From assembly GCA_022563255.1 (NCBI GenBank), contig JADFNS010000006.1, positions 1-64,000 of the forward strand: 64,000 nucleotides of DNA. Reading direction: 5' to 3'. Each line of letters begins with the position of its first letter. Within the stretch, counting starts at the first letter, position 1. Below, one piece after another: positions 50,626-51,980 of the stretch. The position numbers and the translations under genes are program-made. The notes beneath the pieces were generated by a model. It did no database searches. It worked only from the letters and a program-made list of their open reading frames with translations, and was not told the origin of the DNA. Source of the stretch: Pseudomonadota bacterium. Its GTDB lineage: Bacteria; Pseudomonadota; Gammaproteobacteria; Steroidobacterales; Woeseiaceae.

Positions 50626-51774
50626 TTACAATTCGGCGTGATTTGCCGTTTCCGTTTCGACGCCAGAGTAATAAATCCAGACATTTTCCTCGGCCGTGAG
50701 CAGTTCGATGTATTTCGGGTGTACAAATAAATTCTCGCGACCCGATTTCAATTCTCGCAATACACCCAGATCACATAGCTGTTTCAGGTACACAGATGCC
50801 GTTTGTCGTTTCGCGACGTTGGCTTCGACCAAATTGCCAATACGACAATACGGTTGCTTGAACAATAACTCAACGAGTTCCCAGGAATAGGTTTTTGGCA
50901 ATCTTTTTTGCACAAACTCGCCGGTGTGTTCCATCAGTTCACGAATCGACTTGATCTTGTCTGTGGTCCAGGTACAGGTCTCCTCCACCCCTGCGAGGAT
51001 GAAGTGGATCCAGGGCGCCCAGTCTTGCTCTTTCGTCACATTTTGCAGCAGCTGGTAGTACGCGGCCTTGTGCTGAATGATGTAGCGACTGAAATACAGA
51101 ATAGGGGAGTCCAACAGGCCATGTTCGACCAGGAACAATATATTGAGGATGCGTCCTGTCCGGCCGTTACCGTCGGAGAAAGGATGAATAGCCTCGAACT
51201 GGTAGTGTTGCACCGCCATGCGGACCAGCGGATCAATTTCCTGGTTGCCGTGCATGAATTCGGCCCAGTTGTCGAGCATTTCGACCAGCAGTTTTTGGCC
51301 GACCGGTGGCGTATAGATCGTCTTTCCAGAGCCACGGTTTTTGAGAGTTGTCCCAGAATCAGATCGAATATCGAGATCTACGCCTTTGATAGTGCTGCAT
51401 ATTTGTATGGCCATATCGGTGGTTAGCATGCGTCGCTGGACCATTTTGCTGCCTTCGTACAAGGCCGTGCGGTAGCGCAGGGCCTCTTTGGTCGCCGCGT
51501 CCGCGCGGTCTTCGGCGATATCGGCGAATTCGAAGAGTTTGTCCGTCGTCGTCACTATGTTCTCGATTTCGGAACTGGCGCGAGCCTCCAGCAGAGGCAG
51601 TGCGTTGACGAGCACAGCCGAATTCGGGATCAGTTCGGCGGCTTGCTTGAGTTCCGCCAGCGCCACGCGTGCGGTGATGCAGCTTTTGAGGATTTCAGTC
51701 GTCTCGATCTTGTGTGTGGGCGGTGGCAGTAACGGCAGGGCGTTGTAGGGCACTTCGGGATTAAAATCAGTCAC
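50626..51774 (-). CDS. Fic family protein, class II (N-terminal inhibitory motif) with C-terminal winged HTH
   Basis: HPFSDGNGRTGRIL; SSEIEN inhibitory motif; C-terminal IGNLVEANVAKRQTASVYLKQLCDLGVLRELKSGRENLFVHPKYIELL. Confidence 0.93.
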   Translation of the reverse strand: MTDFNPEVPYNALPLLPPPTHKIETTEILKSCITARVALAELKQAAELIPNSAVLVNALPLLEARASSEIENIVTTTDKLFEFADIAEDRADAATKEALRYRTALYEGSKMVQRRMLTTDMAIQICSTIKGVDLDIRSDSGTTLKNRGSGKTIYTPPVGQKLLVEMLDNWAEFMHGNQEIDPLVRMAVQHYQFEAIHPFSDGNGRTGRILNILFLVEHGLLDSPILYFSRYIIQHKAAYYQLLQNVTKEQDWAPWIHFILAGVEETCTWTTDKIKSIRELMEHTGEFVQKRLPKTYSWELVELLFKQPYCRIGNLVEANVAKRQTASVYLKQLCDLGVLRELKSGRENLFVHPKYIELLTAEENVWIYYSGVETETANHAEL

Positions 51775-51803: not shown

Positions 51804-51980
51804 TGTCGATTGCATCGACATCAACGGTCCATATGTCGATAAAAGTTCGATTTATCGACACATCAAACTGACGTGTCGATTGCGTCGACTGGAATCGTCG
51901 ATATGTCGATATTTACCATAATTTTCGACACGTTTGCAGTATATGTCGATTTGGGAGACACGTTTGTGACACATGTCGAA
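51804..51980. promoter_or_regulatory. Array of TGTCGAT/ATCGACA half-sites between fic and fhs
   Basis: Exact heptamers start at 51804, 51814, 51834, 51854, 51874, 51904, 51944; near matches at 51884, 51894, 51924, 51974 in the same 10-bp phase. Confidence 0.8.

Follow-up and report, generated by a model that had tools for sequence, protein, structure and literature searches.

The fic gene of the window (the whole 64,000-nucleotide stretch of DNA that was analysed) is preceded by an ordered array of TGTCGAT half-sites, which recurs with the same spacing rules upstream of related sofic genes and is absent from a sister family of Fic proteins. We consider it probable, at roughly 0.78, that this array is the sofic operator, to which SoFic dimers would bind via their C-terminal winged helix and so repress their own gene cooperatively.

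The fic product scored 589.1 bits against NCBIfam NF046030 (the ProtAdlyltaseSoFic equivalog, curated cut-off 550) and has the domain order Fic_N, Fic, SoFic-like_C. Its catalytic motif HPFSDGNGRTGR matches the Fic pattern HPFx[D/E]GNGRxxR and its N-terminal inhibitory motif SSEIEN matches the class II pattern [S/T]xxxE[G/N], while SoFic-like_C supplies a winged helix. These results agree with the earlier note on this DNA, which had called the gene a class II fic with a C-terminal winged HTH and had also identified the divergent fhs gene correctly. Solved SoFic structures were strong sequence matches of the product, and the AKRQTASVYLK segment of the winged helix is identical, letter for letter, in Shewanella oneidensis SoFic. 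The product also matches the PADLOC SoFic profile, which makes it a putative anti-phage protein. No gene, such as a separate antitoxin, fits between the array and fic at this locus. The features of the gene and the array are as follows:

50626..51774, minus strand: fic (sofic), class II protein adenylyltransferase, 382 aa, GTG start
50782..50814, minus strand: AKRQTASVYLK, residues 321-331, C-terminal winged helix, presumed recognition helix
51151..51186, minus strand: Fic catalytic motif HPFSDGNGRTGR, residues 197-208
51559..51576, minus strand: inhibitory-helix motif SSEIEN, residues 67-72
51804..51980, no strand assigned: predicted operator lattice, 11 half-sites, grammar '><.>.<.', about 2.4 units of 70 bp
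51804..51810, plus strand: half-site >, TGTCGAT, exact
51814..51820, minus strand: half-site <, ATCGACA, exact; with 51804 forms the short inverted repeat TGTCGAT-TGC-ATCGACA
51834..51840, plus strand: half-site >, exact
51854..51860, minus strand: half-site <, exact; with 51834 forms the long inverted repeat, 13-bp spacer
51874..51880, plus strand: half-site >, exact; one 70-bp period from 51804
51884..51890, minus strand: half-site <, degenerate GTCGACT, 2 mismatches
51904..51910, plus strand: half-site >, exact; 70 bp from 51834
51924..51930, minus strand: half-site <, TTCGACA, 1 mismatch; 70 bp from 51854
51944..51950, plus strand: half-site >, exact; 140 bp from 51804
51954..51960, minus strand: half-site <, weak GGAGACA, 3 mismatches; position predicted by the grammar
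51974..51980, plus strand: half-site >, TGTCGAA, 1 mismatch; 140 bp from 51834

All seven exact heptamers reported previously were present at their positions, five on the plus strand (51804, 51834, 51874, 51904 and 51944) and two on the minus strand (51814 and 51854), and the array does start 30 bp from the fic GTG at 51774. The remaining 26 copies of TGTCGAT/ATCGACA are scattered through the 64-kb window, and at their rate the Poisson probability of seven within 175 bp is ~2e-12. When the array is divided into 10-bp cells, with > for TGTCGAT and < for ATCGACA, the sites follow a 70-bp repeat, '> <. >. <.', that places half-sites at 0(>), 10(<), 30(>) and 50(<) and two-fold axes every 35 bp. 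The plus strand of the array thus reads > <. >. <. > (<). >. <. > (<). >, with weak sites in brackets. The earlier note had described a shared 10-bp phase; the sites do fall on a 10-bp lattice, but the real rule is the stronger one of the 70-bp unit. Its degenerate copies at 51884, 51924 and 51974 fit this grammar, the one it placed at 51894 does not, and it overlooked the site at 51954. A strong promoter was not seen in the array, where one weak match was found versus 0.7 expected. With the array set aside, TGTCGAT is about 2-fold over-represented in the window (26 copies versus 12.3 expected from shuffles).

Conservation of the array with sofic genes

A genome scan found 47 related loci, 45 of them Woeseiaceae-like with 77-87% identity, and the array was present at fic in 45 of 45. 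With homologue start codons assigned by rule, the 300 bp upstream of these 45 fic genes contained 402 TGTCGA half-sites compared to ~20 expected from shuffles, counts that are not independent events because the homologues are related. The contrast region on the 3' side of fic had 0.6 sites per 300 bp. Multiples of 10 bp separated 1530 of 1695 site pairs (90%) in the close relatives, where the distances allowed between sites of like orientation are 70k, 70k+30 and 70k+40 and those from > to < are 70k+10, 70k+20 and 70k+50. A single template with four half-sites in each 70 bp accounted for 379 of the 402 sites, whereas of nine sites placed at random a mean of 1.9 would fit.

The array was also found well outside this group. 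We assembled 23 distant SoFic genes from a gammaproteobacterial sample (369 genomes, 45 with a family match and 11 above the cut-off), a phylum sample and plasmid records. At 53-60% identity, 22 of the 23 had at least three TGTCGA sites upstream, and the set, which spans Gammaproteobacteria as well as rhizobial and other alphaproteobacterial plasmids, had 103 sites versus 5.2 expected. The earlier note had staked its proposal on finding the array next to fic homologues, and it is there in close and distant SoFic genes alike. On alphaproteobacterial plasmids the array takes the minimal form '>.<.><.>', at about -97 to -26 of fic, and on several of them an extra ATCGAC half-site reaches into the start codon. 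In E. coli, where sofic and its upstream region were recovered from 269 of 5426 complete genomes, the 70-bp unit is present in 7.4 copies, and array length reaches 270-520 bp in E. coli and some Woeseiaceae. Four of the alphaproteobacterial plasmid loci (L110, L113, L114 and L120) have a recombinase-family gene directly after sofic, overlapping it or nearly so, with repC near in three.

In some homologues the half-site word has changed. A Nocardiopsis homologue at 47% identity uses TGTTAG, Salmonella plasmids use TGTTTA/TGTACA, and a further locus (L071) uses TGTCGC, with the grammar kept in each and 0 of 200 shuffles as good, indicating that the grammar outlives the word. A recognisable array was not found in two SoFic homologues (L107 and L119). 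Retention of the same grammar at 53-60% identity, in two classes, on plasmids and through changed words would be hard to explain by descent without selection.

Thirty Fic-wHTH paralogues with 35-45% identity served as a contrast family. The TGTCGA array is absent from these genes (0.20 sites each), and their recognition segment differs from that of the array-bearing group, in which AKRQTAS is kept. Many of the paralogues have their own word, TGTATAG/CTATACA, with 18 sites versus 0.7 expected and spacings of 20, 21 and 41 bp (upstream of fic in L085, L086, L089, L093, L095 and L096). Operator word and winged helix therefore vary together across subfamilies, which favours the Fic protein as the factor that reads these words.

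Lattice cores elsewhere in bacterial and phage genomes

The genome of the window has one such array. Its sole other exact inverted-repeat match, at C6:107695, falls within a phosphoglycerate-mutase-like gene and was attributed to chance. A regulon in this genome was also considered and rejected: among the '>.<.>' matches listed, all are at fic except one with 2 mismatches. In the class sample, exact '>.<.>' matches among those listed were mostly at sofic, with an exception in one genome (G136) where the match is close to a degenerate Fic. Lone cores away from sofic were also observed in bacteria:

L392, 4315-4361: lone core near an AbiEi-like gene (G082)
L394, 4422-4467: lone core upstream of an Nmad2 and SNF2-helicase pair (G140)
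L395, 2601-2657: lone core, context not assigned (G212)
L396, about 680-746: lone core upstream of recC, one mismatch (G058)

These lone cores may be relics of lost sofic genes, or they may form a small regulon.

In the viral collection (IMG/VR), at least 119 stretches contain an exact '>.<.>' match, mostly as an isolated core, compared to 1, 15 and 3 matches in the full scan for control patterns that were off-lattice, had one spacing lengthened by 1 bp, or had complemented words. Among the 108 non-identical viral matches listed, 44 are joined by a fourth half-site precisely at +50, where chance would give about 0.5, and 60 are intergenic or nearly so by mechanical ORF calling. Further 70-bp units are not enriched among the matches listed, and the flanks are like those of sofic arrays. 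In one recurrent context the match sits downstream of a P22-type coat gene, in the narrow space that separates two genes, and in a second it is just upstream of a terminase large subunit. The isolated 57-bp core '>.<.><' is often located in short intergenic gaps of phage structural operons, as in these examples:

L194, 4953-5009: 57-bp phage core
L224, 10671-10727: 57-bp phage core
L415, 11325-11381: 57-bp phage core
L491, 12937-12993: 57-bp phage core
L579, 4741-4797: 57-bp phage core

SoFic is encoded in only two of the lone-core viral contigs examined. A search of the lone-core contigs for phage-encoded winged helices of the SoFic type gave no significant score except in the two contigs that carry sofic, and such proteins were discarded as candidates. 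Rhodobacter phage RcBaka, a cultured relative of one core phage, had no core in the 7.7 kb examined, and blastn of the consensus core against named phages returned nothing convincing.

The viral copies of the lattice might act as decoys or be SoFic sites that phages carry. We suggest only tentatively that the 57-bp phage cores are decoys or sensor sites for host SoFic. If this is true, replicating phage genomes with many sites would titrate scarce host SoFic away from the sofic promoter or keep it trapped on DNA, which would constitute a DNA-encoded, protein-free counter-defence or, conversely, a trigger by which SoFic senses phage.

How the array may be read

From these sequence patterns we infer that SoFic is the binder, and likewise the dimer spacing, cooperativity and repression. 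SoFic would act as a dimer with one winged helix per C-terminus, each reading one TGTCGAT half-site, and dimers would span half-sites 20 bp (about 68 Å) apart, the commonest close inverted spacing in the lattice. Adjacent dimers would pack along the DNA with the 70-bp repeat, making binding cooperative, so that promoter and leader would be shut off at a low SoFic threshold and the toxic AMPylating enzyme would stay scarce. With dimers on '<.>' pairs, every half-site would be used once and the distance between neighbouring dimers would alternate between 30 and 40 bp; '>.<' pairing would suit this lattice as well. The ordered lattice supports the cooperative binding that the earlier note had proposed, and autoregulation by the Fic winged HTH, its other suggestion, is the likely mechanism given that the array is kept at SoFic genes and absent from paralogues.

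The proposal that all sites lie on one face of the helix did not hold up in that form. Relaxed B-DNA has 10.5 bp per turn, and against this pitch an exact 10.0-bp lattice over 170-270 bp drifts, by more than one turn for the longest. For the sites to share one face, the DNA would have to be constrained to 10 bp per turn; failing that, each two-fold axis is rotated by 120 degrees from the next, 35 bp away. Given a 70-bp unit and a 10.0-bp register off the B-DNA pitch, it is more likely that a protein-protein repeat underlies the lattice, or that the DNA is kept at this tighter pitch, and in either case the rigid register suggests direct protein packing along the DNA.

Wild-type E. coli Sofic is described as toxic and clonable only under extra-tight control (PMC12249575), and repression of a toxic gene fits this need. 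SoFic DNA binding was called undemonstrated in 2023 (PMC10628234), and no description of a SoFic operator was found in the literature searched. That DNA-bound SoFic is kept inactive and let go on phage infection is speculative.

We regard it as unlikely, at perhaps one chance in four, that the array serves chiefly as a sink or DNA antitoxin, on which lattice-bound SoFic would be held inactive (or activated) and repression would be secondary. The pool of free SoFic would then shift when host DNA is lost or phage DNA competes. The 270-520 bp arrays go beyond the need for promoter occlusion, phages carry the core, the activity of the related CbFic2 is altered by DNA binding (PMC10628234), and deletion of the C-terminal domain abolished EcSofic toxicity (PMC12249575), all of which are consistent with a sink. 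On alphaproteobacterial plasmids, in contrast, the array consists of a single unit that covers the leader as far as the start codon, as a simple operator would.

A separate conserved host regulator might bind the array instead, with SoFic only its target. This is improbable, given that the same array travels with the gene between classes, onto plasmids and amid unrelated neighbours, and that a different word in a Fic-wHTH subfamily goes with a different Fic winged helix. Still less probable is an array that controls fhs, alone or with fic, as the earlier note had allowed. The divergent fhs is separated from the last half-site by ~95 bp in the window and in several relatives, and is beside fic in many close relatives, but elsewhere it is ~1.5 kb away or was not found in the fetched flank, and the array remains at the fic start whether or not fhs adjoins. 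The plasmid and E. coli sofic genes have unrelated neighbours. Co-regulation of fhs is thus unsupported, because the array follows fic when the neighbour changes. A recombination or replication site is barely credible: serine resolvase res-like sites begin with TGTC, iterons also repeat, and several alphaproteobacterial plasmids have a recombinase-family gene after fic with repC near, but an adjacent recombinase is confined to some of those plasmids and is absent beside fic in the annotated Salmonella, Cedecea and E. coli regions, and res sites have three subsites with a consensus unlike this 70-bp repeat of up to seven units.

Significance and comparison with known systems

A conserved lattice of fixed geometry, also present in E. 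coli, provides a handle on how a class II Fic defence toxin stays quiet and is then triggered. The lattice names the candidate DNA and predicts a dimer spacing, and if SoFic fills it, this enzyme would assemble into an ordered multimer along DNA. Because the core recurs in phage genomes, a role as decoy or in sensing can be put to the test.

The Phd-Doc operon, which encodes a Fido-fold toxin, is autoregulated through a separate antitoxin that binds the DNA, whereas in SoFic toxin and presumed repressor are in one chain. The array bound by the omega repressor of pSM19035 consists of repeats of one short unit. Cooperative multimers on short-repeat arrays are formed by both omega, at parS (PMC9499535), and BldC, whose arrays reportedly also repeat one short unit (PMC5859096). 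The SoFic unit is instead 70 bp of mixed orientation, in a lattice with dihedral symmetry whose presumed reader is an enzyme.

CbFic2 of Coxiella burnetii is a class II Fic protein with a wHTH that binds DNA, and DNA affects its activity and dimerisation; it bound random DNA and has no known operator (PMC10628234), in contrast to the ordered array of SoFic genes. Sequence specificity can therefore not be assumed for all relatives. The anti-phage proteins SoFic of S. oneidensis and Sofic of E. coli share the NCBIfam equivalog, the PADLOC SoFic assignment and the winged-helix segment with the fic product of the window, and an array of this type precedes the E. coli gene as well. The parts of the two reports used here ascribe their control to the inhibitory helix and AS1 and describe no operator or autoregulation (PMC3667792, PMC12249575).

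CccR of Yersinia pseudotuberculosis, a Fic protein with a wHTH, is a repressor of its own promoter, where it occupies inverted repeats; binding requires dimerisation, and the DNA-binding helices of the apo dimer are 70.2 Å apart (PMC9755527). Both CccR and SoFic are Fic toxins with the same domain order and a C-terminal wHTH, and both have inverted repeats upstream of their own gene. The 20-bp lattice spacing of about 68 Å would be a good match to the CccR helix distance. However, the CccR operator is one 10-bp repeat pair, AGATAATCAT-N26-ATGATAATCT, with no lattice, and neither its word nor its spacing is found in SoFic arrays, which use TGTCGAT with 3- and 13-bp spacers. CccR is also a T6SS effector, whereas SoFic is a listed defence protein. 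By analogy, the SoFic array is predicted to work like the CccR operator without being the same operator.
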